A stretch of 64,000 nt of DNA from contig NZ_MBSS01000068.1 in the NCBI RefSeq assembly GCF_001695855.1, forward strand, positions 62,001-126,000. The letters are read 5' to 3'. Origin of the DNA: Ensifer sp. LC163 (GTDB lineage Bacteria > Pseudomonadota > Alphaproteobacteria > Rhizobiales > Rhizobiaceae). This document shows positions 25,695 to 58,808 of the stretch, piece by piece. The notes beneath the pieces were generated by a model. It made no database searches. It was not told the DNA's origin and was given only the letters and a program-made list of their open reading frames with translations. Position 1 is the first letter of the stretch. Each line of letters starts with the position of its first letter. The position numbers and the translations under genes are program-made.

Positions 25695-26936
25695 TCAGTG
25701 CAAATTCTTGAGGTTGATGGTTGTGCTGAATTCGCCGTTCATTAGTCGCCTCAGGTGAAAGCCAGCGAGCGGGTCCTCCGGATTGCGACCAACCAGCGCA
25801 GCGAATGAAGCTACAGCACGAGGATCACCGCTCTCCAGCTCTTCGAAGGCAGCCATGTACGCCTGCGTTGCGCCGCTGGCATAGATTTCGGCCTCAAGCG
25901 GCTCGAAAGCGCGGATCGGCTCCACCCTGCCTCTGAGCAGGAGGTCGCCAACAGGGCGACCGCAGAACCCCTGCATGTTCGCTGCGAGGCGTGTGCCAAG
26001 CGACTTGTTGGCCGCTTCCAAGCGCGCGGCAACGTTGATGGTGTCGCCGTAGGCGCTATAGTCGAAGAACTTTCCTCCGCCGAAGTTGCCGACTACGGCC
26101 GTGCCGGCATGCGCACCAATCCGGGTGTGGCCAAGGGCTATTCCCTTTCTGCACCAGTGTTCACGGAAAGACCGTGCGAAGGCGTCAAGTGCGAATGAAC
26201 AGGCGATCGCGCGACTGGCATGGTCCGGCTGATCGACCGGTGCGCCGAAAAGTACGTGGAGTGCGTCGCCAATGATCTTGGCGACAGTACCGTCGTGGGC
26301 GAACACGATGTCAGTCATGCCGACGATGTAATCGTTGAGGAGCTGCCCAAGCACGTTCGGCTCGATCGTTTCCGCCAGTGTGGTGAACCCCGTCAGATCG
26401 GTAAAGAGCGACGCAACATCTCGGCGTTTTCCGCCAAGATCGAGGGCGTCGGCGCTGCTGGCCAGGCGTTCGGCGAGATTTGGCGAAAAGTAACGGGAAA
26501 GTGACGCACGTGCCTGCTCGGCGGCCGACTGCCGGCGCTGCGCCTCACGCAACGTCTCCACGTGGTGGATCGTCTTGACGATCGTCGCCTCCAGGTCGGG
26601 AAAATCGATCGGCTTCGTCACGAAATCATAGGCGCCGCGATTCATCGCGATCCGGATGTTGGGCATATCGCTGTAGGCCGAGACGATTATCGTGGACAGA
26701 TCCACGTCCCTCTGCTGAAGCTTGGCCAGCAGCGACAGGCCATCCATACGCGGCATGTTGATGTCGCTCAGCACAATATCCACGTCGTGGTTGGCAGCAA
26801 GCACTGCCAAGGCGTCAACTCCGTCGCAGGCGAACAGGAAACGCAGTAATCCGTCGCGGATCTGCTTCCGGAATTTCTGGAGAAGAAGCATCTCCAGGTC
26901 CGGCTCGTCGTCAACAACGAGGATACTTGTGCTCAT
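25695..26936 (-). CDS. Response regulator with class III adenylate/guanylate cyclase output
   Basis: The protein has 413 aa. The receiver domain (1-120) has the acidic pair DDEPD, phospho-acceptor Asp58 in VLSDINMPRMDG, and Lys108 in TKPIDF. A coiled-coil linker follows (125-160). The class III cyclase domain (170-350) has metal-binding Asp180 in FTDLTGFT and Asp224 in KIIGDALHVLFG, and GDTINVAARLEAAN. It should make cAMP (or cGMP) when phosphorylated by the adjacent multi-GAF histidine kinase. It overlaps the single-domain response regulator by 4 bp (ATGA). The C-terminal about 60 residues are helical without a known domain. Confidence 0.9.
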   Translation of the reverse strand: MSTSILVVDDEPDLEMLLLQKFRKQIRDGLLRFLFACDGVDALAVLAANHDVDIVLSDINMPRMDGLSLLAKLQQRDVDLSTIIVSAYSDMPNIRIAMNRGAYDFVTKPIDFPDLEATIVKTIHHVETLREAQRRQSAAEQARASLSRYFSPNLAERLASSADALDLGGKRRDVASLFTDLTGFTTLAETIEPNVLGQLLNDYIVGMTDIVFAHDGTVAKIIGDALHVLFGAPVDQPDHASRAIACSFALDAFARSFREHWCRKGIALGHTRIGAHAGTAVVGNFGGGKFFDYSAYGDTINVAARLEAANKSLGTRLAANMQGFCGRPVGDLLLRGRVEPIRAFEPLEAEIYASGATQAYMAAFEELESGDPRAVASFAALVGRNPEDPLAGFHLRRLMNGEFSTTINLKNLH

Positions 26937-27322
26937 GCGGCGCGCCCAACTCGACTGTCGATTTCTACTCGCAACGCGATAAAGTCGATCGGCTTGGTCA
27001 GCAACGCCTCCGCACCACTTTCCATGGCTCGTCGCTTCGTATCCGGATCGCCATAGGCAGTGATCATGATCACCGGCACATCAGGCCGTACGGTCCTCGC
27101 CTTCGGCAGAAGTTCGAACCCGCTCATACCGGGCATGTTGACGTCGGACAGGATGAGAATGAGCATGACGTCGCCCGCATCGGCGATCCGCTCGAGTGCG
27201 GATGATGCTGATCGCGCGAACTCCATGACAAAGCGACCAGCGCGCAGGTCATGGCGGAACTGTTGTTTGAAAAGCAGTTCGACGTCGGGCTCGTCATCGA
27301 CCACCAGAATGAGGAGGCTCAT
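26933..27322 (-). CDS. Single-domain response regulator (CheY-like)
   Basis: A 129-aa stand-alone receiver: acidic residues DDEPD at 9-13, phospho-acceptor Asp60 in [13 protein letters not shown], Thr88 in MITAYGDPD, and Lys110 in LTKPIDF. It overlaps the kinase by 4 bp upstream and the cyclase response regulator by 4 bp downstream, so the three are made together. Its receiver is more similar in wording to the cyclase protein's receiver than to generic ones (both end TKPIDF). It may act as a phosphate sink or relay between kinase and cyclase. Confidence 0.9.
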
Positions 27323-30300
27323 GATTTGCCCTCCGGTGTAGCCATCGCCGGGGTTAACCGCGGCAGTCGAATGCGAAACTCGGTGTACTGACCAGGTTCT
27401 GTTTCCACCTCGATGGAACCGGCATGCTGCTTGACGATGATGTCGTGGCTGAGTGACAGGCCGAGGCCGGTCCCCTCGCCAGCGGGTTTGGTTGTGAAGA
27501 AAGGATTGAACATTTTCTCCCTCACCTCTGGCGGGATTCCGACACCATTATCGCGGATAGTGATCTCAACGCTGTCTCCGAGGTCCCTGGTCACCGCCGC
27601 AAGCGTCGGCTCATAACTGTCACCGGGGTCGGATGCTGCGCGTTTGCTCGTCGCATAGAAGCCGTTTGAGATGAGGTTGAGAAGCACGCGTGTGATCTCC
27701 TGCGGGTATAGATCGATCTCCCCGGCCACCGGATCGAGCGATTTCTTTAGGGAGATCGTGAACCCCTGCTTCTCCGCTCGAGCCCCATGATAGGCGAGAT
27801 TGAGGCTCTCCTCGACGATGGCGTTGATATTGGTCGGCCTGCGCTCGCCCGCTCCCTGACGCGAATGCATAAGCATGTTCTTGATGATTGAATCGGCGCG
27901 TTTGCCGTGCTGGACGATCTTTTTAAGATTACCCTTTATCGTCTCGGCGAGTGCGTCGATCTCGGAGCGCGGCGCGCCGTCGAGCGCCTGCTGAAGCTCT
28001 TCGATCAATTCGACCGACAGCGCCGAGAAATTGTTCACGAAGTTCAACGGGTTCTTGATCTCGTGTGCAATTCCGGCGGTAAGCTGTCCGAGTGAGGCGA
28101 GTTTTTCCGTCTGGATCAATCGGTCCTGCGTAGCCTTGAGTTCCTCGAGGGAGTGCGACAGTTCGTCGGTTCTCGCCCGCACTTCCTGAAATAGACGCAC
28201 ATTCTCGATGGCAATCACGGCCTGGTCGGCAAAGGTAGATGCCAACTCGATCTGCTTGTCCGTGAATGGCCGCACGGTGGAACGGGTCAATGCGAGCACC
28301 CCGATCGGGCTACCCTCGCGCAGGAGCGGCACGCCAAGTACGGTACGAAACCCGCCAAGTCTTTGCGCTTCCGGCATGGCGTACTCGGGATCGTGGAGGA
28401 CGTCGGCCACCTGAACCGGCCGGATCTCAAGCAGGGTTCGCCCTACTATGCTCCCGCGCCCCGGCTCCAGCGGGAGCGCTCGGAAATATTGGTCGAATTC
28501 CTGAGAGAAGCCGTAGCTGGACACTGGATAATGCGCGTCACCCATCGGCCGGGTCATCGTCGCCATGTCCGCCTCGCAAAGACGGGCACCGGACGCCACC
28601 AGAGTATCCAAAACCGATTGCAAGTCGAACGCGGAGCGGCTGATGACCTTCAGAACGTCAGCCGTCGCGGTTTGCTGTTCTAGCGCCTCGGCCAGTTCGG
28701 CCGTCCGCGCTTTCACCTCGTCGAAAAGCCGCACGTTCTCAATCGCTATGACCGCTTGGTCGGCAAAGGTCTGGAGAAGGTCGATCTGCTTTTCAGTAAA
28801 TGGCTTGACTTCAGTTCGGCGTATGACGAGCCCACCAATAGCTTGCTGCTGTCGCAGCAAGGGCGCCGCTAAAATCGTGCGATGCCCCATCCGCACGGCC
28901 ATGCTCTGGCCGTCCGGGTACTCGTCGGCGTCGGCCGTCAGGTCAGGCACATGAATAGGTTTTCTGTCAACGACGGCCCGTCCGGTCACCCAACCCCGTG
29001 ACACCGGCCAGCCTGCGAAATCGATCGGAATTGGCCCGTGATGCGCTCTCAAGTAGAGAGTGTCTCCATCCTTTAGGAAAATGGCCGCATCATAGGCCTC
29101 GCAAAGCCGCACGGCCGATTCGACAAGCGTATCAAGTACCGTCTGGAGATCGAAGGTCGACCGACTGATGACCTTCAGAACATCGGCTGTCGCCGTTTGT
29201 TGCTGCAGAGCCTCCTTCAGGTCGAGATTCCGTTCTTCCAAATCGGAAAACAGTCGAACATTCTCGATTGCTATCCCGGCCTGATCGGCGAAGGTCTTGA
29301 GAACTTCGACCTGGCGATCGGGGAACAATCCTGGTTCGCTTCGTGCCACGACAATGGTTCCGATCGCGACGCCGCCGCGTATGATGGGCACCGCCACCAG
29401 GCTTCTGTAGTTCGAGGATTGACTGCCGATGACGGTATAGGCCGTGTATTCCGGATCGGCGAGCCAGTCTTCTATCTGCTCTACTGATCGGCTGAGGATC
29501 GAACGGCCGGCCGCACTGCCTCGACCGGGCGGGGCTGGAAGCACCGCGCCTTCGGGTTCCAGCCGGTGGTGCGCCACGAAATGCAACAGTTCGCCATCAT
29601 AGCGAAACACGTGGCAGAACTGCGCGCCGCAAAGCCGGGCTGCACGCTGCGCGATCGTGTCGAACACGGGCTGCGCATCGGTCGGTGAGGTCGAGATGAC
29701 GCGAAGTATTTCACTTGTCGCCGTCTGCTGTTCGAGCGCCTCGCCAATCTCTCGGTTGTGCGCTTGCGCCTCCTCGAAAAGATGAACGTTCTCGATGGCG
29801 ATCACCGCCTGATCAGCGAATGTTCGCAGCAGCTCAACCTGTCGCTCTGGAAAGACGCCGATCGCGCGCCGAGTGACGGCGATCGATCCAATCGGACGTC
29901 CCTTTCGTAACAGCGGCACGCCCATGGCGCTACGGTACGACACGATCTCCGCCAGCTGGAGCATCTGATAATCTGGGTCGGAAAAGACGTCGGGGATCTG
30001 CTCGATGACACCGCTGATAAAAGCTCTGCCCGTGACGTTGCCTTTATTTGGTCGCTGCGGAAACCTGGCACGTACTGCTTCAATGCCTTCGCGCGATATG
30101 CCGTGATAGGCGACTGGGTGTAGGAACTCTCCGTCGAACTGAAATACGAAACAAAATTCCGCCGCGCATAGCCTTGCTACGCTTTTCGCTATCGCATCGA
30201 AGACGGGCTGCGCGGAGTTGGTCGAGATCGGAATGACGCGCAGTATTTCGCTCGCCGCCGTCTGTTGCTCGAGGGCCTCGTCAAGCTCCCGCTTCAGCAG

Positions 30301-30369
30301 TTCGACCTGTTGTCTGAGACTGACGCTTGATTCATCCGCCTCGCGCCCCTCCACTGCAGTATCCCCCAT
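27319..30369 (-). CDS. Histidine kinase with four tandem GAF domains
   Basis: A 1016-aa soluble kinase with no transmembrane segment. Four GAF repeats occupy roughly residues 40-200, 225-380, 410-560 and 590-740. Each is preceded by a linker with the EQQTA(T)xxEILRVIS or DVLKVISRS wording and ends [15 protein letters not shown]. The dimerisation domain has phospho-acceptor His769 in [17 protein letters not shown]. The ATPase domain has the N box [18 protein letters not shown] and [11 protein letters not shown]. The first gene of the operon, it feeds both response regulators. Multiple GAFs suggest sensing of small molecules, redox state or cyclic nucleotides, but cysteine/histidine ligands were not obvious. 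Confidence 0.9.
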
Positions 30370-30840: not shown

Positions 30841-32223
30841 TCAGTCCAAGCCGATCCAGACGGAGCCGTCCTGTACGCGGCACGGGTAAACAACCAGCTT
30901 GGCGCGGTTTTTCGAAATATCTCCCGCGTATTCATAGCCAGGCGCAGTGCCATCCTGCTGTAATTGCGCCCACTGCCTGATTTCGCCGGTGAGCAGGTCA
31001 AAACAGCTTTGATGCCATCGGCAGACGAGGCCAAGATCGCTGGTAATGGTACTTTCGGTGTGTGGGAGTTGCAGCCCTTTTGTCTGGGCTGGACTGCGGC
31101 GCTCGTATAACGGCAAGTGAAGATGTGGGCAGGCGTTGTTGAAGGCGCAATAGCCGTCCGCTTCGCGAACTATGACGATGTCGTAGTCGTCGAAGTCGAG
31201 AATCCGTCTTTCGTGGAGCTGGAGGTCTTGTTCAGCAAGAGCGCAAACCCACCTTCGGCCGCCATGTCGGATGGTTTCGCGGGAGGGCTTGGCGTTGAGC
31301 TCGGCGTCGATTTCGGGCCTTAGCCTGTCTACTTCGAATAGCGTTGTGCGCTCGCTTGTACCGCGAAGGCGCACTCTGACAAAGTCAGCAATTTCCACCT
31401 TATCGGCAAGCACGTTACGGAGCGATTCGGATATCAGCAACCGCGTACCGGCATCTTTATTGGCGGCCTCAATCCGGCTCGCCACATTCACAACGTCACC
31501 AATGGCCGTTAGTCGTCCATGTCCGGCAAAACCCAATGTTCCGATGACAGCCTCGCCGTAGTTGAGGCCGATGCGGATCTCGAAGTCGATCCCATACATC
31601 GAGGCAAAGAACGGCTTCAATCGATCCACGGTGCAGAGAGTCTGAAGGGCCGCATTGACGGCGTGGAGCGGTGCGTCAGGTCGACCATCTATGCCGAATA
31701 TGGCCATGAGCCCGTCACCAATGAAACTGTCGATGAAGCCGCCATTCTTCTCGATGATGTCGCCGACCTGGGCGAAGTAGCGATTGAGTAGGTACATCAC
31801 GTCGTAGGCAGAGAGCTTCTCCGACAGCGCCGTGAAATCGACAATGTCGCTGAAGAACACCGTGATGCGCTTGGCTTCTCCAGAACGTGTCGCGGCAGTT
31901 GCACCAAGTTGGTTGGTGATCATCATGTCGGTTTCGTCCAACACCAGCCGCCGGACACGAAGGTCGCCTTGGGGTTTAAGCTGGCAAGCCAACCGAACCT
32001 CGTCCGTCAAACTCAATCGGTCCGCCATCGAAGCCTCAGTGGCATTCCGATTTGGGCAGGCCTCCAAGCCAGAGAGGATCCAGACACGGCAGGTCGAGCA
32101 TTTCGCCCGCCCGCCGCATGCATGCGCGAACGGCAAGCCCGATCTCAAAGCCGCCTCCAGCAAGGTCTCGCCGGCGGTCACGTCGAAGTCCATCTGATCC
32201 GGCAGGGCGGTTACTCTGGTCAT
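30841..32223 (-). CDS. Ferredoxin-domain / class III nucleotide cyclase / Rieske-domain fusion protein
   Basis: A 460-aa protein with three domains. Residues 1-95 are a plant-type [2Fe-2S] ferredoxin with ligands Cys36, Cys42, Cys45 and Cys80 (ACGGRAKCSTC, RLAC). Residues 115-300 are a class III cyclase with metal-binding Asp126 (FFSDIVDFT) and Asp170 (SFIGDGLMAIFG) and the GDVVNVASRIEAAN segment. Residues 320-458 are a Rieske-like domain with Cys365-Pro-His367 and Cys401-Arg-Trp-His404 (CPHLHLPL, CRWHQSCFDL). There is no transmembrane segment. It should make cAMP under control of iron-sulfur redox state, possibly passing electrons between the two clusters. Ferredoxin-cyclase fusions are known in rhizobia; the added Rieske end is the uncommon part. 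The gene stands alone. Confidence 0.88.
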   Translation of the reverse strand: MTRVTALPDQMDFDVTAGETLLEAALRSGLPFAHACGGRAKCSTCRVWILSGLEACPNRNATEASMADRLSLTDEVRLACQLKPQGDLRVRRLVLDETDMMITNQLGATAATRSGEAKRITVFFSDIVDFTALSEKLSAYDVMYLLNRYFAQVGDIIEKNGGFIDSFIGDGLMAIFGIDGRPDAPLHAVNAALQTLCTVDRLKPFFASMYGIDFEIRIGLNYGEAVIGTLGFAGHGRLTAIGDVVNVASRIEAANKDAGTRLLISESLRNVLADKVEIADFVRVRLRGTSERTTLFEVDRLRPEIDAELNAKPSRETIRHGGRRWVCALAEQDLQLHERRILDFDDYDIVIVREADGYCAFNNACPHLHLPLYERRSPAQTKGLQLPHTESTITSDLGLVCRWHQSCFDLLTGEIRQWAQLQQDGTAPGYEYAGDISKNRAKLVVYPCRVQDGSVWIGLD

Positions 32224-32686
32224 CTTCGACTCCGCAGGTTGGTCCCAATTCTAACACCAAGAGAACAGGCGATCGAATCTTGTACGGGCCGGGAGGCCGC
32301 AAAGCCCATGGGTGATCTCGGGGGGGGCTCAACGATTGGCGCTGATCGCGATGGTATCGGCGGCATGACCAAACACTAGACCGATCTCATGTCTCACGGT
32401 TGCGGGCGCCACTGCGCGCTTGCCGATATCATCACCCATGCAGTGTGGCTGTATTTTCGGTTTCCGCGGCGGCCTGCATGTGATTGCGTAAAATTTGCGC
32501 TGAACGTGCCACCTCACCGCTGTTGTCGCAGGTCGTTTGACAACAGCCAATGATTCCCGGATCGTCTGATAAGGTTGGTCTTGTTTCGCGGAAGGCTAGG
32601 GGAGGCGCCGGCGCGCTATCGCGTGCAGCCTCCCGTGGACCTCTTCTAAAAGCCAAGCACCATTCGAAGCAAACCGGGAGGATGGC
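32224..32686. other. Intergenic region upstream of dodecin and the cyclase fusion
   Basis: The divergent region between the cyclase fusion (minus) and dodecin (plus). No recognisable gene is in it. It must hold both promoters, but no clear operator was found. A run of seven G residues lies near 32321-32327. Confidence 0.35.
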
Positions 32687-32896
32687 ATGAGCGACCACGT
32701 CTATAAGAAAGTGGAACTTGTCGGAAGTTCGAAGACCTCCGTCACAGAGGCGATCGAGACTGCGATTGAGCGGGCATCGAAGACCATGAGAAATCTCGAA
32801 TGGTTCGAGGTTGACCAGATCCGGGGACACATCAAAGATGGCGAAGTTGCGCACTATCAGGTGGTCGTGAAAGTCGGGTTTAGGATTGACGACTGA
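32687..32896 (+). CDS. Dodecin (flavin-binding dodecamer)
   Basis: A 69-aa protein of normal dodecin length beginning SDHVYKKVELVGSS, with TSVTEAIETAIERASKTMRN, then LEWFEVDQIRGHI and HYQVVVKVGF. Trp39 and Gln58 match the aromatic stacker and flavin-contacting Gln of bacterial dodecins, which store riboflavin/FMN in a twelve-subunit shell. The start at 32687 follows a GGGAGGA ribosome-binding site. A minus-strand open frame covers it completely but is an antisense extension of the broken hydrolase and not a gene. Confidence 0.93.
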   Translation: MSDHVYKKVELVGSSKTSVTEAIETAIERASKTMRNLEWFEVDQIRGHIKDGEVAHYQVVVKVGFRIDD

Positions 32897-32923
32897 AGCA
32901 TGATCCAACCGAAGCCAGAGCAG

Positions 32924-33292
32924 ATCCGCGGCCTTGAGGGCTGCGGCCGCGCCGGTATTCGCCCCGAAGATCCCGATCGGCAGCCCTGGCCTCTCTTGCG
33001 CCGCCAAGACCCATTTGTAGGCACCAACCAGTCTTCCGGCCAGAAGCGGGATATCGAAGACATGGGCGCGGTCTGCAGCCTCCCTCTCACCCAGGAGGTC
33101 GAAGAGCAAGCTCGCAACGCCGTGCCGCCGCAGCGTCTCGGCAACGTAGACATTAGGCGGGCGCTTATGACTCGACCCACTGCCATGAGCGAACACAATG
33201 ACACCGCGAGGGTTTGACGGATTTCGAAGGCAGCCTGGCAAACCGAACGGCGAAATTTCGACATCGATCACCTCGGCTTGGTCTGCAGCCAT
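32924..33292 (-). pseudogene. Alpha/beta hydrolase (dienelactone-hydrolase-like), C-terminally truncated
   Basis: 123 codons from the ATG at 33292 match the first half of a small alpha/beta hydrolase: GVIVFAHGSGSS (oxyanion HGSGSS motif), NVYVAETLRRHGVASLLFDL and LPIGIFGANTGAAAALKAA. The nucleophile elbow normally reads G-x-S-x-G; here Ser is Asn112 (GANTG). The Asp and His parts of the triad are lost because the frame runs into the antisense strand of dodecin. It sits 25 bp downstream of the rtcB stop. Both truncation and nucleophile change point to an inactive relic. Confidence 0.72.
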
Positions 33293-33317
33293 ATGGTCAT
33301 CTTGCCGGATGCTATGG

Positions 33318-34748
33318 CTAGCCCTTGATGCATATGACGGGCCGCATGCGCGCCACACGCCGGGCAAGACCGGCCCGTTCGGCGGCAAGCACGACGGCTT
33401 CGACATCCTTGTAGGCGCCGGGCGCTTCTTCTGCCACGCCACGGCTGGAGGGGCTGCAGATGAGAATTCCCCGCACAGCGAGCTCGTCAACGATTTGGCG
33501 GCCGCTCCAGAGCTTTAGTGCCGCATGGCGTGACATCGCCCTGCCGGCACCATGGCATGCGGACGAAAACGCCTTCTCCTCGCTCGTCGGCTCGCCGGCC
33601 AGCACATAGGAGGCGGTGCCCATGCTCCCGCCGATAAGGACCGGCTGCCCGACGGCGCGGAATGCTTGCGGAACGACCGGATGGCCGGCCCCGAGCGAAC
33701 GGGTTGCGCCTTTGCGGTGAACGAAGAGCTCACGGCGCTTGCCGCCCACCACGTGCGACTCGAGCTTGCAGGTGTTGTGCGAAACGTCGAACAGTAGTTC
33801 GAGGCTGGCCTGCGGAAAGTAGCGGCCAAAGACCTGCCGGCTGTAATGGCCGAGAATCTCCCGATTTGCCAATGCGCAGTTGATCCCGGCGCGCATCGCC
33901 CCGAGGTATCGCTCCCCCAACTTGGACTTGATGGGCGCACAGGCCAGTTCGCGGTCCGGAAGGATGATCCCTGCAGCCGGTGCAGTACTCGCCATTTCCT
34001 TCAGGAACTCACTGCCGATCTGATGGCCGAGCCCGCGCGAGCCGCAATGAATTGTCACGACGACGCCCTCGACACGCAAGCCGAATGCGTCAGCGGCCTG
34101 TTCATCGAAGATCTCAGCCACGGCCTGCACTTCGAGATAGTGGTTGCCGGAGCCCAACGTGCCCATTTCCCGCCGCTGGCGCTCCTTGGCGCGATCCGAG
34201 ACAAAATCCGGCCTGGCGCCTTCCATTCGGCCGCCGTCTTCAATCCGGTCCAGGTCGTGCTCCTCGCCCCAGCCACGCTCTACGGCCCAGCGCGCGCCCC
34301 CCGTGAGCATCGCGTCCATCTCGGCATCGTCGAGCGTCATCTCTCCCCTGCTTCCGACGCCTGCGGGGATTTGCCGGAACAGAGTTTCGGCCAAAGCCTC
34401 CTGTACCGGCAGAATATCCTCTACCGACAGGCCGGTGAGCATCGTGCGCACCCCGCATGAGATGTCGAAGCCGACGCCGCCGGCGGAGACCACGCCTCCT
34501 TCCTCCGGATCGAAGGCGGCCACACCGCCGATCGGAAACCCATAGCCCCAATGGGCATCGGGCATCGCTATCGAGGCAGACACGATTCCTGGCAGGGTCG
34601 CGACATTGCAGGCCTGCTGACCGACCTTATCGTCCATCTCGCTGATGAGTTGCTCATCCGCGAAGATGATCGCCGGCACGCGCATCGCTCCGGTCGGTTC
34701 GATGCGCCAGGTGACCGGATCAATCTGCGTGAAGCCAGCCGGATCCAT
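33318..34748 (-). CDS. rtcB: RtcB-type RNA-splicing ligase
   Basis: The protein has 476 aa, at the long end for the family (E. coli RtcB has 408). Metal and GTP-binding motifs are complete: MPDAHWGYGFPIGGVAAF, GGVGFDISCGVR, GTLGSGNHYLEVQ, HCGSRGLGHQIG, LLFDVSHNTCK, and SACHGAGRAMSR where His399 is the expected guanylylated residue. The enzyme joins RNA 2',3'-cyclic phosphate and 5'-OH ends using GTP and Mn2+, and repairs or splices tRNA-like RNAs. Archease, its activator, is encoded 9 bp upstream on the same strand. No RtcR or RtcA gene is next to it. Confidence 0.93.
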   Translation of the reverse strand: MDPAGFTQIDPVTWRIEPTGAMRVPAIIFADEQLISEMDDKVGQQACNVATLPGIVSASIAMPDAHWGYGFPIGGVAAFDPEEGGVVSAGGVGFDISCGVRTMLTGLSVEDILPVQEALAETLFRQIPAGVGSRGEMTLDDAEMDAMLTGGARWAVERGWGEEHDLDRIEDGGRMEGARPDFVSDRAKERQRREMGTLGSGNHYLEVQAVAEIFDEQAADAFGLRVEGVVVTIHCGSRGLGHQIGSEFLKEMASTAPAAGIILPDRELACAPIKSKLGERYLGAMRAGINCALANREILGHYSRQVFGRYFPQASLELLFDVSHNTCKLESHVVGGKRRELFVHRKGATRSLGAGHPVVPQAFRAVGQPVLIGGSMGTASYVLAGEPTSEEKAFSSACHGAGRAMSRHAALKLWSGRQIVDELAVRGILICSPSSRGVAEEAPGAYKDVEAVVLAAERAGLARRVARMRPVICIKG

Positions 34749-56933: not shown

Positions 56934-58808
56934 ATGGCCTCCGTCGATTCCCTTGCGGCGAGATTGCTGTCGGCGACATTGATGTTCGATCGGGCGTCTT
57001 TGGCGGCACTTGAGGCTTTGGCTGCCGAATCCGACCGGCGGGTCCTGCGACGCGGTGAGGTCCTGGTTCGCGAAGGTGATCCATCGGACCGGTTCTTCAT
57101 AGTACTATCTGGCCGCTTTACGGTGCACAAAGAAGATTCAGCCGGCTGGGTCGCCGAGATTGGCCAGGGCGAACTCGTCGGTGAGGTCGGTTTCTTCGCG
57201 GGGCTGCCCCGCATGGCCACCGTTCTCGCAGCGCGCGATTCGATCGTTCTTGAAATCCGCGGCAACCAGTTCGAGAAAGCGGCCGTCGCCTTGCCAAGCC
57301 TACGACAGGCGGTCACGACTTTTCTGGCGCGCCGGTTCGCCATGCAGGCTCCGAATTCATCGCTTCCCAAGAAACCTGCCAAGATCCGAACGCTTGCGGT
57401 CATTCCAGCCGGCGGAAGTCGCATTTCACCAGTTTTCATCCGGCACCTGCGGAAAGCGTTCGATGTACGCGCGCGCGTTCAGTTCCTTGCCCGGGCTGAC
57501 ATTGAAGCGCGGTTCGCCGGTCTTCCGATCGACGATCAGCCGGTCCTCAACTGGTTGAATGAACTCGAGGCCAAAACCGAAATCATCGTTTATGTCGCCG
57601 ATGAAGAGCCCAATGAATGGACACGAGTCTGCATTCGCCAGGCGGATTGCGTCCTGTTGCTTGCCAGCGCGTCCTCTTCGCCCTGCATGAACCTGTCCGA
57701 GCAGCTGGCGCTATCGGTCCATCCACCATCGACCGCGCGGCTCGTCCTGGTTCACGACAATCGCTCGGTAGCGGTCTCCGGTACCACTGAATGGCTTAAC
57801 GAGCGTCCTCATGTTGGCCATCATCATCATGTTGCGCTAGTGGACGGGTCCGACATCCAACGCCTGGCTCGATTCATTTCCGGCAACGCGAGGGGTTTCG
57901 TGGCGGCAGGGGGCGGGTCCCTCGGCAGCGCCCATCTGGGCGTCTACAAGGCCTTCCTTGAGGCGGGCGCTTGCTTCGACTATCTCGGCGGTACGAGTTC
58001 CGGAGCGGCAATGATGGCCGGCTTTGCCCGTGGGTTGGATGCGGATGAGATCGACCGTGGCACGCACAACATATTCATTAAGAGCCGGGCATTTCGCCGT
58101 CCCACATTGCCGCATTTCGCGCTCCTGGATCACAAGGTGTTCGATCGAGCCCTTCAGGCGGAGTACAGCGACGTTCTGATCGAGGATCTTTGGCTTCCGT
58201 TCTTTGCGCTTTCGACCAATCTGAGCAGTCGTCAGCCCCATGTTCATCGCTATGGAAAGCTGTGGCAGGCCGTTCGGGCGTCCGGCTCGATCCCGGGTGT
58301 CCTGCCGCCGTTCTTTACGACTGACGGCGATATGCTGGTGGATGGTGGGATTATGAACAATCTGCCGTTGGAGCAGATGAAGGAACTCAAGACCGGACCC
58401 AATGTCGTCGTGAGCTTGGAGTCGGGTGGACCACAGAAATACCAAATCGACTATGACCGCATCCCCGGAGCTTCCCAGTTGGCGCTCGCCTGGCTAAATC
58501 CTTTCGGTCGTGCCAGCTTGCCAAAGGTGCCCAGCGTGATTCACGTGATTGCTGCGAGCATGCTGGCGCACCGGCCGCAGGACATTGCCATTGGCGAAGA
58601 GGATGTTTTGGTCTGTCCGCCGGTTTCGAGCACGATCAGCTTCATGGATTGGAGCCGGCATTCCGAATTGTTCTCTGATACCTACGACTGGACGATCAGA
58701 TGGATGAAGGAACGTCTGCGCCAGAACGACCCGGGCCTCCAAGCGGTGCTCGGCACCTCTGCTCAGCAAGGCCTGATCCAAGTCCGTGGCGACAGCATGG
58801 ACCTGTAG
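56934..58808 (+). CDS. Patatin-like phospholipase with N-terminal cyclic-nucleotide-binding domain (NTE-like)
   Basis: The protein has 624 aa. Residues 15-140 are a cNMP-binding domain with RRGEVLVREGDPSDRFFIVL, GELVGEVGFFAGLPRMATV and an Arg-containing phosphate-cassette region (GLPRMATVLA). A middle segment (145-310) has an RssA/NTE-type wording. The patatin domain (about 320-510) has the oxyanion loop GGGSLGSAHLGVYKAFLEAG, the nucleophile Ser355 in GGTSSGAAM and Asp470 in the DGGIMNNLP dyad. It should hydrolyse lysophospholipids or related esters under cAMP/cGMP control, at the membrane. The gene stands alone. The two cyclases 25-30 kb away are possible partners. Confidence 0.9.
   Translation: MASVDSLAARLLSATLMFDRASLAALEALAAESDRRVLRRGEVLVREGDPSDRFFIVLSGRFTVHKEDSAGWVAEIGQGELVGEVGFFAGLPRMATVLAARDSIVLEIRGNQFEKAAVALPSLRQAVTTFLARRFAMQAPNSSLPKKPAKIRTLAVIPAGGSRISPVFIRHLRKAFDVRARVQFLARADIEARFAGLPIDDQPVLNWLNELEAKTEIIVYVADEEPNEWTRVCIRQADCVLLLASASSSPCMNLSEQLALSVHPPSTARLVLVHDNRSVAVSGTTEWLNERPHVGHHHHVALVDGSDIQRLARFISGNARGFVAAGGGSLGSAHLGVYKAFLEAGACFDYLGGTSSGAAMMAGFARGLDADEIDRGTHNIFIKSRAFRRPTLPHFALLDHKVFDRALQAEYSDVLIEDLWLPFFALSTNLSSRQPHVHRYGKLWQAVRASGSIPGVLPPFFTTDGDMLVDGGIMNNLPLEQMKELKTGPNVVVSLESGGPQKYQIDYDRIPGASQLALAWLNPFGRASLPKVPSVIHVIAASMLAHRPQDIAIGEEDVLVCPPVSSTISFMDWSRHSELFSDTYDWTIRWMKERLRQNDPGLQAVLGTSAQQGLIQVRGDSMDL

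Follow-up and report, generated by a model that had tools for sequence, protein, structure and literature searches.

The closest described system is CyaC (SMc01818) of Sinorhizobium meliloti, a redox-regulated diheme/[2Fe-2S] class III cyclase that responds to quinone redox state and whose redox sensitivity is ascribed, in the available text, to its hemes (PMC10463352); the available part of a second source likewise has it regulated through its diheme membrane domain (PMC9552081). Cyclases are over-represented in plant-associated Proteobacteria, S. meliloti included (PMC554113, available part). Cyclases with a ferredoxin domain (Fer2) are already known, and what is new here is a soluble variant with a C-terminal Rieske domain. 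The primary paper on CyaC is reportedly Wissig 2019. CyaC and the protein described here are both class III cyclases with a [2Fe-2S] cluster site, and in CyaC, too, Fer2 stands directly before the cyclase. However, CyaC has a six-helix diheme-B anchor, to which its redox sensitivity is attributed, whereas our protein has no anchor, carries a Rieske domain at its C-terminus and lacks the ATP-selecting lysine.

The gene lies in a window of 64,000 nucleotides, the whole stretch of DNA that was analysed, from Ensifer sp. LC163. Its features are:

30841..32223, minus strand: gene for a Fer2 – class III cyclase – Rieske protein of 460 aa (P0001), from the ORF and Pfam
31969..32199, minus strand: Fer2 [2Fe-2S] domain, residues 9-85, with Cys36, 42, 45 and 80 and an extra invariant Cys56, from Pfam
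31879..31968, minus strand: linker, residues 86-115, from alignment
31342..31878, minus strand: class III nucleotide cyclase domain, residues 116-294, with metal Asp126/Asp170, Thr239, Asn246 and Arg250, from Pfam
31726..31728, minus strand: Ser166, where CyaC has its ATP-selecting Lys410 (positions matched by spacing through CyaC-type rows; PMC10463352)
30958..31251, minus strand: Rieske domain, residues 325-422 (homology to 460), with Cys365, His367, Cys401 and His404, from Pfam
32248..32279, minus strand: promoter-like block, from an upstream pattern of close relatives

Domains, ligands and selection

The initial annotation had described a single 460-aa chain with ferredoxin, cyclase and Rieske domains, and this reading is borne out by the ORF and by three Pfam matches, all over their curated cut-offs (Fer2, E 1.8e-10; Guanylate_cyc, 3.2e-21; Rieske, 1.1e-10). 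The PF00211 profile scores 76.2 bits against a cut-off of 21.9, and PF00355 scores 41.6 bits against 20.3. The ligands are also where they had been placed, at Cys36/42/45/80, Asp126/170, Cys365-x-His367 and Cys401-x2-His404, and are indeed intact: across 32 distinct full-length loci, the window's included, all eight cluster ligands and both metal aspartates are invariant. Among the 21 cysteines and histidines of P0001 only nine are invariant in 32/32 loci, namely the eight ligands and Cys56. Thr239 and the transition-state residues Asn246 and Arg250 are equally invariant. No hydrophobic membrane segment was found in P0001, and hence no membrane anchor, and the protein is predicted to be a cytosolic class III cyclase that would form a homodimer and load both clusters; this prediction shares the standing of the overall explanation given below, which falls a little short of probable.

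One claim had to be corrected. The ferredoxin domain had been called plant-type, but plant-type ferredoxins have the spacing C-x4-C-x2-C, whereas P0001 has five residues between Cys36 and Cys42. Its full spacing, Cys36-x5-Cys42-x2-Cys45-x34-Cys80, is the adrenodoxin/ISC-ferredoxin pattern, and among ferredoxins of solved structure E. coli Fdx (1i7h), an adrenodoxin homologue and putidaredoxin come nearest, so the subtype was wrong. The best ferredoxin models in NCBIfam were NqrF and fdx_isc, both under their cut-offs.

For the Rieske domain no solved structure is close, the best match having E 0.05. High-potential Rieske proteins of the bc1 type carry an extra disulfide cysteine five residues past the first ligand cysteine; P0001 differs in lacking it, and position 370 is Leu in 32/32 loci. 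The Rieske-type ferredoxin subunits of aromatic dioxygenases and NirD share the C-x-H and C-x2-H motifs with P0001 and show a weak profile similarity, under cut-offs, but P0001 has its Rieske domain fused to a cyclase, with 27-33 residues between the two motifs (range over the 32 loci). An alignment scan of the class for the Rieske domain gave matches in 6 of 240 genomes: the real form in the own genome and weak matches in five others. These five were considered as another Rieske donor, which was rejected for the two ORFs examined, each an N-terminal Rieske domain fused to an unrelated region. By motif, no stand-alone Rieske gene was found beside two-domain cyclases at six loci (L088-L091, L104, L105), counting ORFs of at least 100 aa; at L089 the ORF picker missed the cyclase itself.

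Invariant alignment columns over the 32 loci amount to 32/95 in Fer2, 78/185 in the cyclase and 23/140 in the Rieske domain. The ratio dN/dS is 0.04-0.40 in each of the three domains, for 11 chosen pairs with synonymous change near saturation in several. Values for short sub-stretches are noisy, reaching 1.46 in one pair between the Rieske motifs, with one undefined value (no synonymous change) in the pocket around residue 166. The invariant ligands and low dN/dS argue that purifying selection maintains the cyclase and both cluster sites.

Relation to CyaC, distribution and surroundings

Of the many proteins of CyaC type that were found, likened to CyaC by their build and not by CyaC's own sequence, 35 were examined. 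They combine Fer2 and cyclase (three were scanned with Pfam) with a membrane part of 3-7 segments that contains four invariant histidines in 35/35 proteins, and are homologous to P0001 over Fer2 and cyclase at 34-41% identity. One of them is encoded in the own genome (L002), where no TetR gene was recognised by eye beside it. In a tree of the Fer2-cyclase unit the three-domain proteins form one clade (ultrafast bootstrap 99, SH-aLRT 95), the nearest branches to which are soluble two-domain Fer2-cyclases, and a 100/100 branch separates the CyaC-type proteins from both. Rows omitted from this main tree are L071, five cyclases that lack Fer2, 23 of the 35 CyaC-type rows and eight Mesorhizobium rows that are nearly identical to others; a second, larger tree, built quickly and rooted from outside, is in agreement (96 and 94). 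L081 and L082 were dropped from the trees, and from the count of 32, as duplicates of L009 and L012.

The linker tells the same groups apart. Arg91, Arg92 and Asp96 are invariant in 32/32 three-domain rows (two genomes counted twice) and 14/14 two-domain rows, whereas CyaC-type rows have Arg91 in 3/35 and Arg92 and Asp96 in 0/35. The two-domain proteins (about 300 aa) resemble P0001 in their Fer2 and cyclase domains and in these residues, and 13/14 have no hydrophobic segment, but they have no Rieske domain and some differ at positions 166 and 239. Specifically, among the 14 two-domain rows (L057-L069, L071) seven have Asp at the position of the ATP-selecting lysine and six have Ala at that of the threonine. 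Those of Hymenobacter are annotated only as adenylate/guanylate cyclase domain-containing protein. The single clade within the soluble group, the 100/100 branch and the linker residues together argue that the Rieske domain was gained once, by a soluble Fer2-cyclase, and that P0001 is a relative of CyaC and not a member of its type.

The three-domain form is confined in our searches to the window's own order, into which all 32 loci fall, with relatives at 52-96% identity. When 84,980 species genomes were scanned by pattern, a search that picks up close relatives only, 19 loci with 82-96% identity were found, in Ensifer/Sinorhizobium and Mesorhizobium. Whole-genome scans, in which the best four candidates per genome were scored, found the full-length form in 8/394 genomes of the family, 6/397 of the order and 2/398 of the phylum (the sets overlap and each includes the own genome), and the open-access full-text literature held no description of it among the matches listed. 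The suggestion that Fer2-Guanylate_cyc-Rieske might turn out to be a frequent and well-studied class therefore falls away. Two of 72,556 plasmid records carry the form, those of Rhizobium etli 8C-3 and R. gallicum. That ferredoxin–cyclase fusions are known in rhizobia, as also stated in the initial annotation, agrees with CyaC of S. meliloti and with the Fer2-cyclases seen in 80/397 order genomes at E <= 1e-45, nearly all of which matched the Fer2-cyclase part only.

No neighbour is common to the loci. A conserved operon was rejected, since none of the nine window neighbours stands beside the gene in 24 loci, save for cross-matches of the cyclase domain (five of the loci extend about 1.5 kb per side, and contig ends truncate others). 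Clustering of the ORFs in 20 neighbourhoods gave only partial sub-contexts, in Mesorhizobium, and revealed no recurring reductase or ferredoxin gene beside the cyclase. The promoter-like block stays with the gene as the surroundings change: its pattern occurs in 15 of 32 upstream regions, though in none of the six distant ones. The travelling block and the lack of a common neighbour suggest that the three-domain gene is probably transcribed alone, and the differing neighbourhoods that it probably works alone. The same 32 upstream regions contained no match to the Clr, FixK (strict or loose) or sigma-54 patterns and one RirA-like match, and a scan for the sigma-70 consensus and terminators found nothing.

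Several other genes around these loci deserve mention. Directly downstream of the gene (window 25695-30369, minus strand) lie a histidine kinase with four GAF stretches, a response regulator and a response regulator–class III cyclase fusion, which make up a probable separate two-component cyclase system. An ORF without a Pfam match at 32432-33490 (minus strand) overlaps the RtcB ORF (33318-34748) and is perhaps a decayed gene, whose first half we take to read like an alpha/beta hydrolase. At five Mesorhizobium loci (L014 3986-13588, L015, L021, L024 and L026) the gene is clustered with genes for a Zn-ribbon/cyclase/AAA/TPR protein, an AhpC-like protein and a periplasmic binding protein; in four of the five a HAMP-PAS cyclase is added, so that three cyclase genes stand nearly side by side (only the L014 copies were scanned with Pfam). 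Within the window, 25 kb from the cyclase gene, a protein encoded at 56934-58808 (plus strand) joins a cNMP-binding domain, an NTE P-loop and a patatin domain and is a candidate cyclic-nucleotide-regulated phospholipase. It occurs in 12/24 searched genomes. In L013 its orthologue lies about 450 nt upstream of the three-domain gene, and in L010 the distance is about 6 kb; in the flanks examined, no copy was seen near the cyclase outside the window and these two loci.

Position 166 and the linkage to mlotiK1

Residue 166 is Lys in 18 of the 32 loci, Asn in 10, Ser in two and Leu in two. The lysine is present in 14/14 Mesorhizobium loci and 4/6 distant loci and in 0/6 Ensifer and 0/6 Rhizobium-branch loci, and a tree with 22 three-domain rows requires four changes at this position. 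P0001 has Ser166 in place of the ATP-selecting lysine that marks an adenylate cyclase, so cAMP is not assured as its product and must be called uncertain; in Mesorhizobium the product is probably cAMP.

A possible target is suggested by gene order. MlotiK1 (mll3241), a cyclic-nucleotide-gated K+ channel known mainly from structural work, is not a homologue of the cyclase but is proposed here as its target. In 4 of the 14 Mesorhizobium loci (L016, L017, L020 and L025) mlotiK1 is the next gene downstream, on the same strand and 219-261 nt away; the L016 channel matches PDB 2zd9 at E 2.5e-205, and the linked cyclases have Lys166 in 4/4 cases. Traces of the same arrangement are found elsewhere. 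At L018 the contig ends 0.6 kb downstream, with about 97 nt of the cyclase–mlotiK1 spacer kept before the break. In genome G1351 most of the spacer (82% over 248 nt) stands ahead of the channel, together with a 73-bp relic of the three-domain gene at 93% identity (L138 5808-5879), while the intact gene (L024) lies on another contig with 49 nt of spacer. The linkage thus appears to be old within Mesorhizobium and to have been lost repeatedly. In Mesorhizobium genomes where the two genes are unlinked, some of the region upstream of the channel is retained, so the linked genes need not be co-transcribed. In the own genome mlotiK1 is on another contig (L156, C1:77600-92700), unlinked to the three-domain gene and beside a divergently oriented DUF5939-cyclase.

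Possible mechanism and competing explanations

Our preferred explanation, which we hold tentatively and just short of calling it probable, is a soluble redox-set cyclase in which the Fer2 cluster sets the rate, the Rieske centre exchanges electrons and local cyclic-nucleotide effectors respond. We infer the gating and its direction, the role and potential of the Rieske centre, the product and the effector. Specifically, the rate would be set by the redox state, or the occupancy, of the N-terminal adrenodoxin-like [2Fe-2S] cluster, which would most likely control the cyclase via the short linker, as part of a Fer2-cyclase unit also used by CyaC. There the unit is driven by the diheme membrane anchor, which reads the quinone pool; in P0001 a low-potential Rieske centre would most likely stand in for this anchor as second redox centre, and soluble partners would link it to the redox pool of the cell by exchange of electrons. 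With the potentials of these two types of cluster, electrons could flow from Fer2 to Rieske; that they might pass across the cyclase dimer is a conjecture of the initial annotation. The cyclic nucleotide would then act on cyclic-nucleotide-binding effectors, of which the neighbouring MlotiK1 is the likely one in Mesorhizobium. The initial annotation had proposed a redox or O2/NO-gated cAMP switch: a redox-set cyclase is supported by analogy with CyaC, and cAMP is the part that Ser166 leaves uncertain. The analogy is itself incomplete, because redox sensitivity in CyaC is ascribed to the hemes and the available text gives no gating role for its [2Fe-2S] cluster (PMC10463352).

The clusters might instead act without reversible electron transfer, as sensors of their own integrity: O2, NO or iron shortage would destroy or strip a cluster, and the cyclase rate would change in the apo or damaged protein. 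Fe-S regulators that work through cluster damage are common, all the ligands are conserved and no redox partner gene recurs nearby, yet the regulatory-site scan gave only one RirA-like match and CyaC, the nearest studied relative, responds to quinone redox state, though through hemes (PMC10463352, available part). We regard this as unlikely, and give about the same weight to the idea that only Fer2 controls the cyclase while the Rieske domain serves for docking or structure or passively stores electrons. Soluble two-domain Fer2-cyclases do exist without a Rieske domain, which by the column counts given above is the least conserved domain outside its ligands; its four ligands, however, do not vary even where overall identity falls to about 52%, and purifying selection acts on the domain.

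The product and the effector have their own alternatives. Guanylate cyclases usually have Glu at the position equivalent to 166. The Ensifer/Rhizobium branch, in which Lys166 has become Asn or Ser, may hold cyclases that are not strictly adenylate cyclases and that make cGMP or a mixture, which we consider doubtful: the split at position 166 and its four changes on the tree are what this would look like, but Thr239 is kept in 32/32 loci, the residue is Ser or Asn rather than Glu, and Asn166 could still bond N1 of adenine. Two published observations, each taken from the available part of its source, point toward a change of product. Replacing the equivalent residue of Ma1120 by Glu raised guanylate and lowered adenylate cyclase activity at pH 7.5 (PMC4215837), and S. 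meliloti Clr answers cGMP while no dominant guanylate cyclase is known in that species (PMC10127613). As for the channel, two accessory genes may simply have travelled together in Mesorhizobium with no functional link, which is quite possible though not what we would assume. The channel is carried by 12/18 searched genomes with the three-domain gene, and in the family sample by 5/8 genomes with the gene against 20/386 without it (Fisher 3e-5); within the own genus the figures are similar (3/3 sampled genomes with the gene, 4/5 without), so the association is mostly ancestry. At 19 of the 35 mlotiK1 loci no cyclase lies within about 7 kb. Against an incidental neighbourhood, the other 16 loci, which share ancestry and are not independent, do have some class III cyclase within that distance, where about one is expected from the cyclase density of the own genome only (in 6.5 Mb, 19 matches less 3 that are confined to the ferredoxin part). 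These cyclases have at least four domain arrangements, being of the three-domain form at four loci, of a 472-aa type at nine (one scanned with Pfam, a DUF5939-cyclase) and TPR-cyclases or a hydrolase-cyclase at three. The furthest-reaching version of our preferred redox-set reading is also the least likely of the proposals made here: a soluble cyclase with two [2Fe-2S] centres in series would be the natural upstream switch of MlotiK1, with cytosol redox state acting through Fer2 and Rieske on the cyclic nucleotide and thereby on K+ flux, and the Ensifer/Rhizobium branch would have been re-tuned to another nucleotide and effector.

CyaC is the sole redox-regulated Fer2-cyclase that we found in print, and, as far as the available text of its sources goes, it is a membrane protein whose hemes are held to sense. 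A soluble, heme-free version with two clusters would lend itself better to purification and spectroscopy, and would show whether an Fe-S cluster alone can gate a class III dimer and whether the switching potential is set by a second cluster. The linkage to mlotiK1 offers a testable physiological input for the MlotiK1 channel, and the lost Lys166 bears on a question left open in the available part of the literature, namely what makes cGMP for Clr in rhizobia (PMC10127613).
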